From positions 952,360-1,016,359 of the forward strand of contig LLEY01000001.1 in assembly GCA_001414485.1 (NCBI GenBank): a DNA stretch of 64,000 nucleotides. The letters run 5' to 3'. Position numbers and translations under genes: made by a program. This DNA comes from Calycina herbarum. Lineage: Eukaryota; Ascomycota; Leotiomycetes; Helotiales; Pezizellaceae. The notes under the pieces are model-generated. The model did not search any database. It was given only the letters and a program-made list of their open reading frames with translations, and was not told where the DNA came from. How positions within the stretch are numbered: the first letter of the stretch is position 1; the number at the start of each line of letters is the position of its first letter. Below, piece after piece: positions 39,397 to 63,526 of the stretch.

Positions 39397-42300
39397 ATAA
39401 CGAGATAGGCCTGAAGATGTCGTTAGTAAGAAAACAGGTAAGAGAGTAGGTTTTAACTTATACCTCTTATAAGGAAGCTCGAGGCTTAGACGTAAGACCG
39501 ACGGGAGCTAGAATAGGCTCTCGTTGCTATTTATCGCAGCGTATATCAACTTTGATAGGAAGTAGTATTAGAGACGGGCTACTAAGAAGTAATAAGTGGT
39601 AAGTGAGCCTTATCCTTCTAGGAAAGAATAAGATATTATATATCACTTATCTCGAGATACAGCGCGCACGATTTATAGAACAGGAGCGAAGACAAGAGGC
39701 CGAGAAGAGAATCAAGTACAGAGGTACAGCTAGTATCAAACTCGACGTGCTTTATTTTCTATATAAAGAATTAAGAGAGCTAGATAAGAAGAATGTAAAA
39801 AGGCTAAGCAATTTGTTTTAGGGAAAAGAAGGTTGTCGTCGACTAGACCTTTATAATCACATTCTAGCCGTTATCAGCTAGCCGGAGCTAGAGGCTGTAA
39901 TAGAAGCTTCTAGAACATCCGCTAAGCGGCTCCTTAATAATATATATAATAGCTATCAAAGGTTAGATTTTCCGCCTAGTTATCAGTTAGAGTGTCTCTA
40001 CAGGCGCTACCGAGTACTGGCGGCAGCCTAAGTTCTTCCCTTAGAGGATAGGTGTTAGACAGTAGACCTATATCTTAATCTTACCTCGGAATTAAAGACG
40101 ACTCTAATCGAAGAGTACTCGGCTGAGAAAGAACTCGACGATAGCGAGATCTATAGTAAAATCCGTGAATACTAAGGATACTAGGGAGTAGGGAATCTAT
40201 ATTTCGAGAAACGATGGTAGGCTCTTTTAGCTACTATATCGAACTATAAGAAGGAGAACCTTAAATAGGTTTTCCGCTATATAGATTATAGGGCGGCATT
40301 CGATGTTTAACTAGACGTTCCTGGACTGGTAGGGGGGATAAGGCTTAGTATAACATATAAAATTTTAGCTACGAGATGCTATAAGGTAAGCTCTATATCT
40401 GCGTGTAGTTCGAAGTACTAACTGTACTAAATAGGAAAATCTCTACTATTTAGATAATATTCGGGATTTCTAGACTAAGATCTTCTAAGGAGATAGAGAG
40501 GTAATATAGAAAGTGGACCGAACTACGGTAAAATCCCTAGAGCTTACCATACCAGGAGCCTGCAGGGCGGATTTCTAGGATCTATATAGCAAAGTACGAC
40601 ATAGTAAGATCTTCAGCGCTTTTAACGAGTAAGAGCGCGAGTATATATAGAGTAGAGTACTTTCTGCCTCTGTTAACCGTTTAATCCCTTCTCTCTTTAG
40701 CTTCTTCGAGGATGTTAACTACTTTAAAAACGTCGCCGACTATGTGAAACGCTTGGTCCCGCTCTTGCCTTAGAGTATAGTCTCCTCTACCCTAGAAGAT
40801 ACATTCTCTAATACGAACCATAGAGCCGGTTAGTGCTTGATCTAAGAATTAGAGTTCTCCGACGTATTCCGGTCTAGGAGTGTAGCGGAACAGGTAGACC
40901 TTAGACGACGATAGATATAGATGTGTACGATACGTAATAACCTACAAATGCCTTAGGAGCCGAAGAGGAAGAACTTGTTAGTAAAGCCTATTATTAAGAA
41001 GGCAGATAAGGTTGTCTTATGTGAGTTTGCTACTCTTGCCTACTAGCTAGGATATAAGTCTAAGCCGATTCATAGCCTAATCCAGCGGTTAGCTGATAGG
41101 GAGATTGCTCGCAGTATACTACTAAAGGCTTAGAAACTAGACTGCTACAAATATATCGAAGCGGCGTTTGAGAACTACGTATAGTAAATAGTAGGTTTTT
41201 TCTCTGCGGCCTAGCTAGTAACGGTAGATTAGGCGAGAGCTGCTATCGAGATAGACTATTCTAACAGACCACTAAAAAGATACGGGATTCTATATATAAA
41301 AGACTATAAACGAGATAAATTGTCCCTTTTCTTAGATAAGTTATATAATACTAACGAGGAATAATTCGATAAGATATTATCTTTCTTCATCTATAGGTCT
41401 GTATACCTTGTATTTTTCGGTAAGCCGAGTCGCCCTACTCCTCGCTCTCCTATAGAGATGTCGCTATTAGATTCTCTAATTTCAGCTCCTCTAGGAGACG
41501 ATCAAGGAAGAGAGGAGCAGGAGTAGCTTACACAGGATGAGCAAGAGAGACTTGTAAGGGAGGAACAAGAGCGATTAATAGGAGCAGAACAAGAGCAGCT
41601 TACAAGAGAATAGGAAAGACTTGCTCGAGAGGAGCAGGAGAGGCTGGCGAGGGAGGAGCAAGAGCGACTAGCAAGAGAAGAACAAGAAAGACTTATAAGA
41701 GAGGAACAAGAGCGATTAGCGAGAGAATAAGAAAGACTTGCGAGAAAAGAACAAGAAAGACTCGCGAGAAAAGAATAAGAAAGACTTGCAAGAGAGGGAC
41801 AAGAGCGATTAGCGAGAGAAGAAGAAAGACTTGCGAGAGAAGAACAAGAAAGACTCGTAAGAGAGAGACAAGAGCGATTAGTGAGAGAATAAGAAAGACT
41901 TGCGAGAGAGGAACAAGAGCGATTAGCGAGAGAAGAAGAAAGACTCGCGAGAGAAGAACAAGAAAGACTTGTAAGAGAGGGACAAGAGCGATTAGCGAGA
42001 GAATAAGAAAGACTCGTAAGAGAGGAACAAGAGCGATTAGCGAGAGAATAAGAAAGACTCGTGAGAGAGGAACAAGAGCGATTAGCGAGAGAAGAAGAAA
42101 GACTCGCGAGAAAAGAACAAGAAAGACTTGTAAGAGAGGAACGAGAGCGATTAGCGAGAGAATAAGAAAGACTCGCGAGAGAGGAACAAGACCGTGCCGA
42201 GAGAGAACGATTAGCAAGAGAAGAATAAGAGCGAGTTATACAGGAAGAGCAGGAGAGACTGGTAGAGAATCTTATTAAGTAATGAAAAGACAGGCCTAAG

Positions 42301-53210: not shown

Positions 53211-53804
53211 GGTTCGTATTCCTACTATACTTTAATACAAAGCTTGGTTTCAATTCACAATACCGTTTTAGTTTCGCGCTTGACACGACGGCTAAAGCGG
53301 AGTATAGTAAGACCTGGTATAGGGTTGGCCGCTAAGCTAGTTTTCCGATCATTCTCAAAATATAGCAAGCCCAGGCGTGAACATAGTAAATTTTATCTTA
53401 GCTAATGTATATTACTCAGCACCGTAATATATAGACCCCCTCATCGTACCGGCGTAATTCCCAGACTATATTCTTTTCCTCTCTAAGTGTTTTTAAAATT
53501 TAGAGCTATAATACTTTATAACAGGACCTTTCTTTAAGTACTCTAAATTTGGAAATGACTTTAACAGTCCCGATTAAACAGGGGGGTTTAGCAGAAGCGG
53601 CGATCGGTGGCTTAATTAATTCGATCGACAGAATAGTAAACTACAATCTTTTTCTTATTCTTAAGTAGTCTCCTTAAGGAAGAATAGCTAAAGAAAACGA
53701 TATTTAAACAATAACTTTATAGACTTACTAAGGAAATGTTTATGATTCTAAAACTATAGATTTGTCTCGTGACAGGGTACGTCTCGGCACACAGGGACAG
53801 ACGT

Positions 53805-54032
53805 TATTTTAATCATTTGTATAATAACTAATATCAATCACTCGTTTTATATCACCTGTTCAAAGCGCTACCATAGCGTAATACTCTCCTTTTATCAGTA
53901 TTCACTCTTTATATATAGACCTAGCTAGCCTACCTCTACAAAGGAGATCAATTCTCCATAACTTACGTTACCCTATACCTTTCCAAACCCAATAGAACAA
54001 TATAAGGCCCAATTACATCGGGTTCAAAGCTA
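53805..54032. other. Spacer between elements A and B
   Basis: 228 bp of AT-rich sequence, including the TA target dinucleotides of both elements; no gene. Confidence 0.5.
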
Positions 54033-54902: not shown

Positions 54903-57797
54903 TTAGAGGATTCGTGCCTTATCATCTTGACCGTCAAACAGTATAAAACGCTTCTGGATCAAACCCATTCCAACCCTCTTAAAACATTCGCGCTGCCAAG
55001 ACGTCGTCGCGCATTTAACAAACAGCACATAATATTTCCGGTTCCCATCCTCTGCTATACGCTTTCTTCCCATTATAGCACACCGTACTTCAGGTAGTAC
55101 GCTGTCAGGTTGAGTATCAAACCACAGCTGCCCAACTTCGTTGTCCTCCTTGTCGAGTATAACGCCCTCAGGTTTGATCTTGCAATCTCGAAGCCGTCTT
55201 ACTCGAGCCTTTAAGGCATAATTACTCAGAATCACAGATTGCAAGGCCTTCGGAAATCGGAAGGTATCCACAAGTTGAACACTACAATCCCATTCAACGT
55301 CTTCATATTCGATTGGCAAATACTGGATCTTCCCGTGATACGCCATCCAAGACCACGATGGAGGCGCCTTGGATGGAGGCGCCTTGAATAGAGCCACCTT
55401 GAATAGAGGCACCTTCTTATCATAATCTATCTGCGTCAGGGTATTCTGTGCCGGTTGCCACAGAAGACTTCGGTGTAGGAAGAACTCAAAGATCCCATAA
55501 CTGACCTCGGTCTTGAGGGCTTTGGCCAACGCCTTAGCTAGTGACTCGATTGCTACGGGCCTGTCTGTCTCGTATGTGAGGTGGAGTGTCGAGTAATCCG
55601 CAAAGAGAGATTGAATAAGCATGATTTGAGCTGACCGAGTACGATCAGTAATAGAATGAGGAAATTCTGGATCACTTCGAAAAGACAATTTCTCACTGGT
55701 TTTATTAGAAATTAGTAATGTTGTAAGTGCTCGGTAATGAATAAAGAAAAGCGATCTAGAAAGACGAAAAGCGTCTTTAAAACTAAGCCCTAGATCGGGA
55801 CTTACTTCTTCATATAAGTCAGCGTTTCGCACCGCACCCCACCGCCACACTCCCAGTACGTTTGCCTCCGCGTAAAATGGATTGTTCGGCGTGACAAGGC
55901 TCGTTCCTGTAACACCCATGCTCGCGTATTCAAGGCCCCCTCTAGCACGTCGCGATCCAAATCATCGATTGATGTACAAATGTAGACTTTGCCATGTGAG
56001 GACTCGGGCACCATCACATATTGCGAATCTTCCTCTTGCGGCGGCCGGTTAAGAAATCCTTTAGTTGAGTCTTCAGCGGAGGTGGCAGCAATCGTACAGT
56101 AGGCGTTCTTGAAGACCGCTTCCATCTTCTTAGATTCGGTAGCCCAGTCCCTTGGGTCATCCTGAATAATACAAAGCGAATCGATCCAGAGGTATCGCTG
56201 GCCAAGTTCTCGAGTGACTGTGATTGCATCTTGAAATGTCTGCGGCAATTCTGTAATCAGAAATCCTTGCGCTCTCCTCTCCTTGTTGCTGGTAGTAGTA
56301 CTCCAGTTCCAATTCTTCTTCTGTTCTTTCGATAGCTCCTTCTGTTCTTTTGCTGTTTCCTCCTGTTTTTCTGGTGGCTTGCCCCAGCAATGGGATAGAG
56401 CAACGTAGTGTGCTCCTTGATTGATGTTCTTTTTCGACCTAAGGTACACGGTGGGGCCATCTTCCACATCAATAACGCGGGTTGGCATTCCAGCTCTATC
56501 GGGATTAGGACAGCATCCATCGCCTTGCGAGCATTTGCCTGTATTACAAAATCGAATCCATTCCTTAATTAGCTTGAAATAGAGCTGGCTACCCGATTGC
56601 AGAAATCCGGGAAGTCCGTGTTGTATTGGCTTCGACCTTCTAGCTTTGGGATCTAAATAGCATTAGCGGTCTATTCCAGGAAAACAAAAGCAGTGCAGTT
56701 TCACATACCCGGCACAGCACAAATTCTTACGTATTGCCGAGCTTCAAGAAGTCGTCTCTTAGGCTCCTTGTTCCTGGCTTCCTCGGGGATTTTGGAAAGG
56801 ATTTGACATAGATCACAACCCTTTTCTATATCATGTAACGAAGAGAGATAGGCATTTAGGTCGATATTACGACAGGGAATACATAACTCCGAAGAAGGTT
56901 TATAAGTAAATAGAGAATTTGACCCAGTTTCTACTTCGAGAGATTCCGAAAATGCATTAAATGGCGGGTAAGTCCACTTGTCCTCAGCATACTAGATTTG
57001 TCGATCTATATTAGTATTATATACAACAGAAGAGTATATAAGCCAACTTACAATCTAGAAAAGTAATAGAAAAAATACTAGTTAGTAATATTATTAAGTA
57101 AATATAATAATACGTACTCTCTAAGATATAATATTAGCGAGTCTCTTCTATTAATTATTAACATATCTGCTACTTACGTCCTAAAACCACCACCAAGACA
57201 CCCGGTCAGCGACTCTCTTCTCTTCATCATCAACGCAGCTGCTACTTACAATCTAAAACCACCACCAAGACACCTGGTCAGCGACTCTCTTCTCTTCATC
57301 ATCAACGCAGCTGCTACTTACGTCCTAAAACCACCACCAAGACCCTCGGTCAGCGACTCTCTTCTCTTTATCATCAACATAGCTGCTACTTACGTCCTAA
57401 AACCACCACCAAGACCCTCGGTCAGCGACTCTCTTCTCTTCATCATCAACGCAGCTACTACTTACCATCTAAAACCACCACCAAGACACCCGGTCAGCAA
57501 CTCTCTTCTCTTCATCATCAACATAGCTACTACTTACCCGCTAAAACCACCACCAAGACACCCGGTCAGCGACTCTCTTCTCTTCATCATCAACGCAGCT
57601 GCTACTTACCATCTAAAACCACCACCAAGACACCCAGTCAGCGACTCTCTTCTCTTCATCATCAACACAGCTGCTACTTACCTCCTATATTAATATCATT
57701 ATTAGCAACAGATGTTGTTCCAGATCATAGCACTTACTATATTATATTCACCATTGTCCTCCCCGCTATCTGAAAAGTAGGATGATTTCGTCGCCAT
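54903..57797 (-). CDS. HET-domain (heterokaryon-incompatibility) protein, 690 aa, with a chain of one-codon exons
   Basis: Probable allorecognition/cell-death protein. Exons 5' to 3': 57797-57738; ten single codons ending at 57682, 57610, 57538, 57466, 57394, 57322, 57250, 57178, 57118 and 57052; 56991-56709; 56652-55806; 55755-54903. Every junction is GT...AG, phases agree and the sum is exactly 691 codons. Exon 1 encodes 20 residues (MATKSSYFSDSGEDNGEYNI); the triplets add E-M-R-M-D-D-I-D-R-I; then YAEDKWTYPPFNAF, a Cys pair region (LCIPC...GCDLC), LIKEWIRFC and the HET domain from about residue 207 (YVALSHCWG, LPQTFQDAITVTRELGQ, YLWIDSLCIIQDD, AYCTIAATSAEDSTKGF) to RAWVLQERALSRR. No internal stops, normal base composition. 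A 57935 start is possible. Whether the triplets are truly retained in mRNA needs RNA data; the coding body is certain. Confidence 0.85.
57052..57737 (-). repeat. Intron chain: seven tandem 69-nt intron copies plus diverged introns, each separated by exactly 3 nt
   Basis: Bases 57181-57684 are seven exact-length 72-bp units. On the minus strand each is a 69-nt canonical intron (GTAAGTAG start, CTGAC branch-like site about 25 nt from the end, GGTTTTAG end) plus one triplet. Upstream an unrelated 53-nt intron (57737-57685) precedes the first triplet. Downstream are a decayed relative (57177-57121, 57 nt), then 57117-57055 (GTACGT, TACTAAC, TTTCTAG) and 57051-56992 (GTAAGT, ACTAAT, TCTAG), again spaced by 3 nt. 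The seven introns differ at only a few sites, almost all C/T or G/A; the triplets on the minus strand are GAG, ATG, CGG, ATG, GAC, GAC, ATT, GAC, AGA, ATT. The + strand of the 72-bp array is also open (24-residue repeat LKPPPRHPVSDSLLFIINAA...), but has no ATG. Confidence 0.85.
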
Positions 57798-57967
57798 TAG
57801 AAGGGCTTTAGTACTAGAGGTCGCAGAAGGTGACAGTGATGTGACGAGGGCGAGTGAGATGCAGCGGTAGGCAACAGCGTACTGCCGGGCACGTGCCCAT
57901 AGAAAGTTCGAGAAACCTGCTCTTACGCCACACATATGACTTGAGAATAGTGGCTGAGTAAAATATA

Positions 57968-59290
57968 CCTTTGTCCATGGATAAATAAACGCACCCCTGA
58001 GGGTTTATGACCTCAGACCCACTCTAGTGCTGCTTTATGCACATTTCTCAACCAAAACATTAATTTTCCTACTATACAACTAGTATTTTGTATGCCATCC
58101 TCGAGTCTCAATCACAGCCTGACATCTCTCTGGCATGCTCCTCACCAAATCTAGTATATCCTCATGTGCCACTGCATTCCAAGCTTCTACTACTGCAGCC
58201 CTTAACCGTGGATAAGACCTATGGATCTCTGGGTAGTGTTCTTCAATATAATCCTTTACTTTCTCCCACACATCTTCAATAGGATTAAGATCTGGTGAGT
58301 TTGCAGGCCAAAAGATAGGGTATAGTCCTTTCTGAGCCATATATGCAATTGTGTCTTTTGCAGCATGCCCAGTAGCGTTGTCCTGCATTAGTATAAGCCC
58401 TGTTCTTCTACAATACTCCCCTAGAACTGGCACAATATGTTCACAATAGCTAGCAGAGCTAATTATGCCCCATCTTTTCTCCCAGAATATGCCAGGTCCT
58501 TTCCCAAATGCTCCTGATATACAGCCCCAAAACATCCACCCAATCTTGCGTTGTACTCGCGGCTCTACGCAATCAGGATGCAATGCTTCTCCCTTTCTCC
58601 TTGTAACCTTCACCTTTCTATGTCTTCCAGGTTGCACCCAACTCTCGTCTGTCCACAGGACTTTGAACCACTGATCTTCCGTCCAATACTCATACTCTTT
58701 AGCCCATTGCAGACGAATATCAGCCTGTTCTGGAGTCAGTTTAGGTTTTCTAAGAGCTGAGTAGCGGCTAAATCCTTCTCTTTTAAATGCTGCTGCAATA
58801 GCATAGACCTTGCATTCCCAGCCAAAGATGCTAGGAATCCGCTCCCATGGTGTCCTCCTATTTGCCTTACTAGCGCACACCCATTCTATTAACTGCTTTC
58901 TCTCTTGAGGGCCGAGTAAAGGACGTCTCCCAGAGCGTGTCTTTTGAGGAGTAATTCGATGGCGAAGGGCATATTTGACTTGATCGATAGTAAGGTTTTG
59001 CTGTAAAGCAATGTCGTCTATGCTCCAATTGGCATCAAAATAGAGGGTATAGACTTTTAATCGCTGGTCGCGGGTGCATTCTTTAGCTCGAGTAGGTGTT
59101 TTTGGCGTAGGAACATTGTATAATCACTCCATGATGACTATAGTGGTAGTTCTGCTATGAAATTGAGTGAGAAGTGACCTAAAGCAGCATGCGGGAAGCA
59201 TTGAAGTTATTGGTGGAACCCCTGGTCTCACAGAAGGTACTAGAACCACTCCAACCCTCAGGGGTGCGTTTATTTATCCATGGACAAAGG
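57968..59290 (-). mobile_element. Tc1/mariner-type transposon, 1,323 bp, complete ends
   Basis: Inverted terminal repeats of about 37 bp: the left starts CCTTTGTCCATGGATAAATA at 57968 and the right is its reverse complement ending at 59290, nearly identical. TA flanks both sides (57966-57967, 59291-59292). It encodes one transposase on the minus strand. It sits about 170 bp upstream of the HET gene's predicted ATG, inside the right arm of element B. Confidence 0.93.
58080..59132 (-). pseudogene. Tc1-like DD34E transposase, intact except for a stop at codon 3
   Basis: 350 codons from the ATG at 59132. N-terminal paired-type helix-turn-helix DNA-binding region (RDQRLKVYTLYFDANWSIDD, VKYALRHRITPQKTRSGRRP), then the DDE core: first Asp in LWTDESWVQPGRH, second in LILMQDNATGHAA, and Glu in SPDLNPIEDVWEK, with the 34-residue D-E spacing of Tc1-like enzymes. 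Only one lesion is seen: ATG GAG TGA, where TGA is explained by one C-to-T change from CGA. No other in-frame ATG occurs before WMFWG in the core, so a downstream restart would lose the DNA-binding domain. Expected to be inactive unless the start lies elsewhere or the stop is read through. Confidence 0.85.
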
Positions 59291-59752
59291 TAGCGAGCCC
59301 GGACTTGAATACAGTATATCGTGACTAGGCTAATGCACATTACTAAGTACTAAACCCTGAAGCCAAAACATGTGGCGTTTATATCCCTCTCCTCGCACGG
59401 CGTAACTCCCGGACAGCATTATTTTTCTTTCTGATTCTCTTCAAAATTTAGAGCCATATTCTTTCTTCATAAAACCTCTCCCCGAGTGCTCTAAAATTTG
59501 AATAGGCTTGAATGGTCGCGATTAAGCAGGGGGGAATAGTAGAAGCGGCAATCAGTGGTGTAATTGAAACGATCGACAGCATGATCAGCTATAGTATTTT
59601 TCTTATTATTAAGTGATCTTTTTAAAGATAAATAGTTAAAGAAAGTGACTTATTAATAAAAACTTCATAGACTTGCTAAGAAAAAATTTATGATTCTAAA
59701 ACTATAAACTTGTCTCGTGACACAGTGCGTCTTGGGACGCAGGGACAGACGT

Positions 59753-60655
59753 TAATAATAATTTTATAAGTCCTCGCTAAAAGCGACTTATTCTTCGACA
59801 ATAGTAACTTAGTTGACTATCTTTATTCCTTGTTCGGAGTTTCGCTGCCTTTATAAGACTTTTCTTCCGCCATAGTTTCTACTGATGGAGCACTGGATCG
59901 TCTTTAACGAGATCTGTCGCGGGACCTCCTGGCATAGAATCGCTTAATAAATTCGCCAGGATTAAATTTGTACTGGTTAAACAATACGAGTGCCTCGGGC
60001 AACCCGTTGGGGCTGCTTTTATTATTAATATAGCTAGGAAGGGGCTCTTCGGAAGACAAGTCGCCGTCGGGTACTACGCTTAATCTCTTCCTACGGGACA
60101 TAAATTTCGGCTATCGCAACTTCATAGTAAAACTACAGTATACTTTCGGCCCTGGTCTGCTATACGATTTCCTTAGCCCTACGACCATAATCCCACAGCC
60201 CAGAAGCATTTTAGCAGTAGTAGGTCACTATTCTATCGCTAGAACACTTACTAGTTTAAGACAGTAGAGAAAATTTCTTAGAATTAACTTACTTTCGAGA
60301 GAAGTTCCAGGGCAGATTAATTTCTAGTTATTAGGAGTAAGCTAGACAGTTGTAGCTGATATAGGTAGCTGGCTGGTACGGGATCTATTTATAGGCCTAT
60401 CTCACTAGGATCTGCTCTTTAGAGTTAGACTTACCTAGGTGCTCGGTCTAGTCGCTTAACGAGAGCTTAAATAGACTCCCCCTTTTATTATTAGCTTTCG
60501 CTAGAAATGTATCCTTCGGGAGCTAGAATAGGCCCCTACTGTACTGCTAGAAGATGTTAATAAAGCTAGGCGATATGCTACTCTTCTATACCTCTAATTA
60601 TAAGTTTCGTTCTTTTCATTTTATTACCATTATAATTATACGCTCTTTCGTCGAC
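59753..60655. other. Repeat-derived DNA with a small minus-strand open frame
   Basis: An open frame 60101-59904 (-) starts MSRRKRLSVVPDGDLSSEEP and ends RRSRDRSR; it is free of stops and has a basic N- and C-terminus, but I do not recognise it and it may be a fragment. The rest is AT-rich with interrupted frames. Confidence 0.35.
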
Positions 60656-63000: not shown

Positions 63001-63224
63001 ACGTCTGTCCTTGAATCGAGAGACGTACCTTGTTATAAGACGAATCTATAGTTTAGGAATCTTAAATGTTTTCTTAGTAATTCTACAAAGTAATTACAAA
63101 GACTTTATATTAAAATAAAATAAACTTTTCATTATTTTCTTTACCTCTTTTACCTAGGGCTAACCCTTACTAAATCATATACCATAGATCTACTTAACTT
63201 ATATTTTCATACTAGTTATATCTA
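63001..63224. mobile_element. Inverted right-end fragment of the element A/B family
   Basis: It starts ACGTCTGTCCTTGAATCGAG after a TA and continues with the sequence seen, reversed, at the right ends of elements A and B (AATCTATAG, then a TTTCTTAG stretch). Homology fades after about 180 bp. Confidence 0.6.
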
Positions 63225-63526
63225 ACGTATATCCCTACGTCGAGAGACCCTATAACGAGATAAATTATTAGTACTTTGAATTTAATTTGAATCTAAATAT
63301 GTGAATTTATTAAAAATTCTAGTATTTTTGTGTTAGTTATGTTCTATAACTACTACTCCTGAACAGTCTAAGCCCCGGCTACTCTGAAATTTATAATCAT
63401 GTTGTTGCTGTCGCGCCTGATTGAGGAGGGTGTTAATTTGTAATATAATAGAACCCCTTGACCTATAGTACTACTATAAGCTCTTTGTGCCTTTTAATAC
63501 TTTGATCTAGGTTTCTAAGCCTTACT
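63225..63526. mobile_element. Left-end fragment of the element A/B family
   Basis: It starts ACGTATATCCCTACGTCGAG after TA (63223-63224) and aligns with the left end of element B for about 300 bp (CCTGAACAGTCTAAGCCCCG, GTCGCGCCTGATTG). It is cut by the LTR-like segment at 63527. Confidence 0.7.

Follow-up and report, generated by a model that had tools for sequence, protein, structure and literature searches.

The window analysed here is a stretch of 64,000 nucleotides (nt) from contig LLEY01000001.1 of the helotialean fungus Calycina herbarum (assembly GCA_001414485.1, positions 952,360 to 1,016,359 of the forward strand). Our subject is a gene on its minus strand, running from 57797 to 54903, that encodes a HET-domain protein and is interrupted close to its start by a chain of introns spaced by exactly 3 nt. 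The gene belongs to the HET family by a match to PF06985 above the gathering score, and a Pfam search of three frames covering the long exons revealed only this domain and no NACHT-ANK, NLR or WD40 domain. The best-scoring named match of the protein is from Cudoniella acicularis (62%). Our gene model predicts 670 amino acids (aa), replacing the figure of 690 aa given in a preliminary description of this DNA. The parts of the gene are as follows; C312 and C127 denote two related arrays elsewhere in the genome, the former in a paralogous gene.

57738..57797 (60 nt), minus strand: exon 1 of the HET gene, 20 codons, MATKSSYFSDSGEDNGEYNI, ending in phase 0
57685..57737, minus strand: intron 1, 53 nt, GTAAGT...ATATAG; its counterpart in the C312 paralogue is likewise 53 nt long
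57178..57684, minus strand: core array, seven 69-nt introns and eight predicted one-codon exons, GAG ATG CGG ATG GAC GAC ATT GAC
between 57681 and 57181, minus strand: the seven 69-mer introns
57121..57177, minus strand: intron 9, 57 nt, a diverged relative of the 69-mers
57118..57120, minus strand: predicted one-codon exon AGA, common to the window, C312 and C127
57055..57117, minus strand: intron 10, 63 nt
57052..57054, minus strand: predicted one-codon exon ATT in the window, TTA in C312 and C127
56992..57051, minus strand: intron 11, 60 nt
56709..56991, minus strand: first long exon, beginning YAEDKW, in phase 0 with the triplets
55806..56652, minus strand: exon carrying the HET domain
55904..56407, minus strand: HET domain PF06985 (Pfam), E 9.9e-35, 120.5 bits against a cut-off of 22.5
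54903..55695, minus strand: final coding exon and stop

Re-reading of the DNA reproduced exactly the intron coordinates, the triplets and the ten 3-nt gaps reported earlier, as well as the phase 0 on both sides of the array, in exon 1 and in the first long exon. The region 57737-56992 holds eleven canonical introns and ten 3-nt gaps, all in phase; ten of the introns were found by the scan described below to have their own donor, branch-like motif and acceptor, and the eleventh was read by eye. The ten triplets, flanked by GAATATAATATA on one side and TATGCTGAG on the other, are GAG ATG CGG ATG GAC GAC ATT GAC AGA ATT in order, that is, E M R M D D I D R I. Every unit of the core array measures 72 bp, one codon plus one complete 69-nt intron. 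Each triplet being a single codon, its omission leaves the reading frame intact. The introns at the edges had been regarded as diverged from, or unrelated to, the 69-mers. The first description suits the 57-nt intron, a relative with 64% identity that beats 300 of 300 shuffles; the resemblance of the 63-nt intron to the 69-mers was equalled by 15 of 300 shuffles.

Spacing of the introns

We scanned both strands of the window for chains of donor-branch-acceptor introns at spacings k of 0, 1, 2, 3, 4, 5, 6 and 9 nt. Exactly one chain of at least two links was present, with ten links at k = 3. A third-order Markov simulation of 7.68 Mb yielded 75 one-link chains and none that was longer. Taken together, the single ten-link chain and the absence of even a two-link chain from the simulation exclude chance as the origin of the spacing in the window.

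Further arrays in the genome

The genome to which the window belongs (68.8 Mb, 379 contigs) was searched at the DNA level with the window array, which returned two relatives, C312 and C127, and with a pattern that requires two complete introns separated by 3 nt, which gave 65 matches versus one in a reversed control. By our own count of the listing, 55 of these 65 fall in nine arrays with 114 triplets read: those of the window, C312 and C127, and six (C52, C68, C101, C224, C359 and C1:761 kb) made of intron families other than that of the window. The remaining ten matches were not counted as arrays, either because inspection revealed no three-link chain (C3, C124, C204, C268) or because they were set aside from the listing (C209, C351). 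A second pattern, GTAAGT followed by GTATGT, had one match, in C312, and one in the control. The match at C3:82333-82450 (minus strand, L047) comprises two introns 3 nt apart around a triplet ATA, with no HET match nearby in our list, and may be a lone one-codon exon or a product of chance.

Three of the arrays bear the marks of repeat-induced point mutation (RIP), a class that was set by an independent RIP index: the composite index is 1.34 to 1.72 for C127, C52 and C68, and -0.57 to 0.33 for the other six. In the stretch before the array, 43 of the 62 differences between C127 and the window are G-to-A or C-to-T, and the array copies with a strong RIP signature at L010, L041 and L042 combine high RIP indices with lost donors.

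All six non-RIP arrays (window, C312, C101, C224, C359 and C1:761 kb) lie upstream of a HET domain. The longest, C312, consists of 27 introns and 26 triplets with 3-nt spacing throughout, and would encode E A R R L H E E R R E L R Q L R L H A A L R L N R L. Its introns are mostly 69 nt long, some being 68 or 72 nt and one of 59 nt holding an assembly N; these shifts in length (68, 69, 72 nt) have no effect on the 3-nt spacing. The array at C1:761 kb (L046 3003-4349, plus strand) stands between the HET frame and a frame just upstream with a protein kinase domain (PF00069, 72.5 bits versus a cut-off of 31.7), and kinase-HET fusions occur among the listed relatives. It keeps six triplets, with no kinship detectable among the five introns between them (ten pairs, the best pair score being equalled by at least 11 of 300 shuffles). 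By our own reading, the first introns of C101 and C224, each of 118 nt, may hide an extra GAG triplet with a GTTAGT or GTTAAT donor.

Read by eye, the long exon after the last triplet has YAEDKWTYPPFNAF in the window, PQEWKIIFDNTFA in C224, SDEWVYAFDNSFA in C101, LDGQWIYIQANSF in C359 and LNEEWDHIFDNSFA at C1:761 kb, so that the non-RIP arrays adjoin a motif of the form W..(Y/F)..(D)N.FA. Many of the annotated HET proteins compared have a W..Y..DN.FA stretch resembling it ahead of the CxxC pair. The arrays therefore occupy a similar place in the gene. The HET family is large in this fungus: 150 HET matches were scored among 318 candidates, and five of the 150 are array genes.

Probable one-codon exons and alternative explanations

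We interpret the region as an array of one-codon exons in a HET-domain gene, with intron repeats that recombine and codons that are probably under diversifying selection, and we assign this reading a probability of about 0.75. The leading alternative, which we consider rather unlikely, is that 57737-56992 is one large intron that holds a minisatellite and that the triplets are never exons. The 72-bp unit does make a good tandem repeat, dropping all ten triplets preserves the frame, and splicing is predicted here from DNA. However, the differences cluster in the three bases that separate AG from GT. In the seven aligned units of the window, the triplet has a mean pairwise diversity of 0.71 and the intron one of 0.053; in the 22 aligned units of C312, the values are 0.60 and 0.089. 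Over unit pairs, intron differences are mainly transitions (transition:transversion 66:10 in the window and 1053:351 in C312), whereas triplet differences are mainly transversions (15:30 and 86:327). Between nearest intron neighbours, the ratio of triplet to intron divergence is 12 in the window (8 units), 8.6 in C312 (23), 9.2 in C101 (12), 6.9 in C359 (14) and 65 in C224 (only three usable units), and in the RIP arrays it is 3.6 in C52 (15 units) and 8.7 in C127 (12); these counts omit units with an intron of less than 60 or more than 75 nt, and the neighbour pairs are not independent. A plain minisatellite, which requires even variation over the unit, was rejected, since no other three adjacent columns of the unit vary as much as the triplet, either in the window or in C312.

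The large intron also leaves unexplained that different triplets stand beside identical introns. Introns 3 and 8 of the window are identical (69/69), with flanking codons ATG and ATT before them and CGG and GAC after them; introns 3 and 5 of C224 are identical as well (65/65), with GCC and GAC before and TTT and CGT after. The opposite case is found in C101, where introns 3 and 5 are identical and so are their triplets, and in C312, where introns 13, 16 and 22 are one base apart and have the same triplets. Two of the observations already described, the six triplets that persist between kinless introns at C1:761 kb and the intron indels of C312 that leave the spacing unchanged, argue against a large intron too, as does the absence of stops: in the six non-RIP arrays each of the 77 triplets is a sense codon, compared with stops in 1/14 triplets of C127, 1/6 of C68 and 0/17 of C52.

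A second alternative, which we regard as distinctly unlikely, accepts real one-codon exons that descend from an older continuous exon and has the introns copied or replaced precisely as RNA, by reverse splicing in the manner of introner-like elements. Such copying would directly yield identical introns flanked by wholly different codons, and mobility by reverse splicing has been argued for fungal introner-like elements in passages of one paper (PMC8469720). Against it, C312 and C101 contain duplicated blocks of two or three units in which the triplets are mostly the same. Furthermore, units with the same triplet resemble each other more closely in their flanks, upstream as well as downstream in C312 (P 0.004 and 0.04) and C359 (P 0.016 and 0.0015), and on the downstream side only in C101. 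A duplicated two-unit block of C359 has kept its introns (97%) and changed both triplets. The duplicated blocks and the linkage of triplets to flanks indicate that duplication of DNA carries codons along and that the codons then outpace the introns. Moreover, the three intron families searched matched only at the arrays (the counts being lower bounds), insertion gives no reason for an exact 3-nt spacing, and folding of six entries, two of them identical, revealed no unusual structure in the introns (z from -1.56 to 1.34).

One-codon exons as we propose them could also have varied without selection for diversity, the triplets being a mutation hot spot tied, for example, to splicing, R-loops or recombination. 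The five non-RIP arrays whose introns are repeats of each other supplied 45 distinct neighbour pairs, of which 12 had the same triplet, nine differed by one base and 24 by two or three. Only one of the nine one-base differences is synonymous (23 to 31% expected) and none of the 24 larger ones, a weak test, and, of the six genes that host non-RIP arrays, two are damaged, that of C312 by a 5-nt duplication that leads to an early stop and that of C101 by an in-frame stop that splits the HET domain; both points favour a hot spot. We nevertheless think it quite improbable, for it would have to be exactly three bases wide, spare AG and GT and yield no stop in 77 triplets. The residues are also biased: over the 94 triplets of the six non-RIP arrays and C52, R (21), E (15), D (12), L (12), N (7) and F (6) account for 73, V, T, W and C are absent, and A in the third position is rare (5/94). 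Finally, it is scarcely credible that the opposite strand encodes a protein of 24-aa repeats and that the intron signals are accidental: the plus-strand frame 57082-57693 does run for 203 aa without a stop, each repeat having a single variable residue, but the opposite-strand frames of C101, C224, C359, C52, C68 and C1:761 kb contain many stops, whereas RIP-decayed C127 keeps the frame open over 289 codons, so that openness follows from the unit and not from function.

The preference for one-codon exons over a minisatellite, expressed in the preliminary description, thus gains from comparison (further arrays, variability confined to the codon, 77/77 sense triplets, kinless introns) and yet stops short of proof, because the splicing of the window triplets is deduced from genomic sequence. 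Besides the weak synonymous test and the damaged hosts, several other points tell against one-codon exons under selection. Exons of 3 nt are hard for the spliceosome. The missing stops, with P = 0.001 under intron composition and 0.019 under pooled triplet composition (94 triplets, seven arrays), have P = 0.18 under the position-specific composition of the triplets, and are weak evidence on that basis. The donor GT is intact in 71/71 introns between triplets of the non-RIP arrays and in 24/34 of the three RIP arrays, but the comparison is partly circular, since the parse requires a donor (or ATAAG), the arrays were found by a GTAAGT pattern and RIP makes G-to-A changes. In none of four arrays did the columns of the splice signals show significantly greater conservation than the rest of the intron (P 0.07 to 0.76), and the linkage between triplets and flanks was absent from the window array and C52. 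No Pfam family was found in the two longer frames of C52 and no frame of 120 aa within the 10 kb examined for C68; the similarity of C127 to the window stops where the array ends. A HET domain was thus located for none of these three. In the 1.5 kb upstream of each of 12 other HET loci, none had a 3-nt chain of at least two links, which suggests that arrays may be a minority feature; one chain of two links at k = 6 and another at k = 1 were taken as chance. Nor was any helical or strand periodicity detected in the triplet peptides.

An amphipathic helix or strand was also considered as the fold of these peptides and rejected, the hydrophobic moments at 100, 160 and 180 degrees of five peptides lying within those of permutations (lowest P 0.12).

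Proposed mechanism

In the mechanism that we favour, units and blocks of units duplicate, as seen in the DNA, so that the number of codons differs (10 in the window, 26 in C312) while each array retains introns of similar sequence; the number and order of the codons would be altered by unequal exchange between introns that are nearly identical. The codon of a unit would then change many times faster than the surrounding intron, a pattern visible in the alignments whose most likely cause would be selection for new amino acids at the codon. Intron-by-intron splicing would join the codons into a short charged/hydrophobic peptide ahead of the HET domain. All junctions being in phase 0, any exon skipping would be in frame and mixtures of isoforms would be possible, in principle up to 2^10 triplet combinations in the window by simple arithmetic. 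The variable peptide may serve this putative cell-death protein in recognition or specificity, as hypervariable repeat codons serve the Podospora HNWD proteins. Incompatibility and cell death in fungi have both been connected with HET domains (PMC10197012), so that a role in specificity is plausible.

Comparison with known systems

The preliminary description knew of no described gene with such a run of 3-nt exons. Such genes are on record, however: according to three papers (PMC3689799, PMC4986451, PMC10197012), Iotti et al. (2012) reported alternatively spliced 'codon-sized microexons', numbering in the tens, or '3-bp long microexons' in the nank genes of the truffle Tuber melanosporum. As far as those papers describe them, the nank genes resemble the window gene, as predicted here, in having tens of codon-sized exons, in belonging to an expanded family of putative nonself-recognition genes and in coming from an ascomycete. 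Consecutive 3-nt exons between complete introns, as in nank genes, are seen here at the DNA level (10 in the window, 26 in C312). The abstract by Iotti et al. reportedly compares the truffle genes with the micro-exon genes of Schistosoma. The nank genes encode NACHT-ANK receptors, whereas the window gene encodes a HET-domain protein, so the same layout is found in another family. Single exons of 3 bp or 1 nt, such as those of Drosophila hth (PMC7392893) and Arabidopsis (PMC4674806), show that a spliceosome is able to include an exon no longer than 3 nt; in the window, by contrast, such exons would form an array. Functional microexons are said in PMC11121469 to be previously undescribed in filamentous fungi. 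Our literature search, conducted on titles and the openings of abstracts and covering few subscription papers, found no mention of codon-sized exons in HET-domain genes among the papers listed. Codon-sized microexons are thus already known from truffle NACHT-ANK genes, and arrays of them in HET genes appear to be new as far as our searches show.

The WD40 repeats of the Podospora HNWD incompatibility proteins (het-d, het-e) are described, in passages of PMC12222747, as undergoing concerted evolution, with changing repeat number and hypervariable codons under diversifying selection. The arrays resemble them in combining near-identical repeats with hypervariable codons. However, the HNWD repeat is a coding WD40 repeat in an NLR, whereas in our arrays what stays uniform is an intron, and coding would be confined to the variable codon. 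Introner-like elements and the sister stwintrons of Hypoxylon are likewise near-identical spliceosomal introns in many copies (PMC8469720, PMC4457414). Introner-like elements are scattered over unrelated genes and have stable structures or inverted repeats, whereas the introns described here stand in tandem in one gene family, by counts that are lower bounds, and, in the six entries folded, lack such structure. Stwintrons are defined by a nested intron that splits a splice element; our arrays have complete introns side by side.

Other features of the window and of the array loci

A Tc1/mariner-like transposase frame lies at 58080-59123 (minus strand), about 280 bp upstream of the HET-gene ATG, with a DDE_3 domain and an HTH_Tnp_Tc3_2 domain slightly below the cut-off. 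The matching flank of C312 skips window positions 57967 to 59291, and a Tc1/mariner-like element thus appears to have been inserted here. Directly ahead of the ATG of the C312 gene there is an insertion of about 200 bp (L008 7135-7335), with TTCTA on both sides, that the window copy lacks. Near the window HET gene and its paralogues, a repeat of about 350 bp occurs, whole or in part (window 53450-53806 and 59379-59754; L008 5423-5798; L010 1824-1955 and 3774-4108). Window 63222-63526 is 78% similar to the 3' flank of the C312 gene copy, which suggests the remains of another duplicate near the window end. Elsewhere, 41510-42208 is an imperfect tandem repeat array with periods of 45, 69, 114 and 117 bp, and the DNA polymerase X of the window has its closest named match in Hymenoscyphus fraxineus (69% identity), metagenome matches reaching 81%.

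Distribution and implications

In five of 120 listed relatives (Phaeosphaeriaceae PMI808 P0105 and P0074, Diaporthe P0018, Fusarium solani P0016 and Macroventuria P0073), the annotated HET protein has N-terminal repeats or stretches that resemble a translated intron from branch site to acceptor, as back-read from the protein letters. One example is a series of AAANASVLGGV repeats, consistent with a GCTAAC branch site and a GGTGTAG acceptor. These are hints that arrays may also be present in Dothideomycetes and Sordariomycetes; a protein search with the N-terminal stretch of P0105 matched only P0105 itself. The annotated relatives P0001 (internally), P0005 and P0006 have first residues similar to exon 1. 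In P0001 and P0005, the exon-1-like start is joined straight to sequence at or after the xDKW stretch, as would be expected if gene finders skip an in-frame array.

We tentatively suggest, at odds slightly short of even, that HET genes across filamentous ascomycetes carry cassettes that are built of one codon per intron repeat, rearranged and multiplied by recombination through their introns and spliced into a hypervariable recognition peptide, and that these have been overlooked because gene finders cannot place 3-nt exons. That the codons are far more variable than the introns suggests a DNA-level route to variable recognition proteins, and the intron beside each codon is a built-in, near-neutral yardstick that makes selection on single amino acids directly measurable. 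If the arrays are spliced as drawn here, they would put the spliceosome to an extreme test, with as many as 26 consecutive exons of three nucleotides, and the N-termini of some HET gene models in the databases would be wrong. A recognition protein would then be altered residue by residue through unequal crossing-over and perhaps through the choice of splicing.

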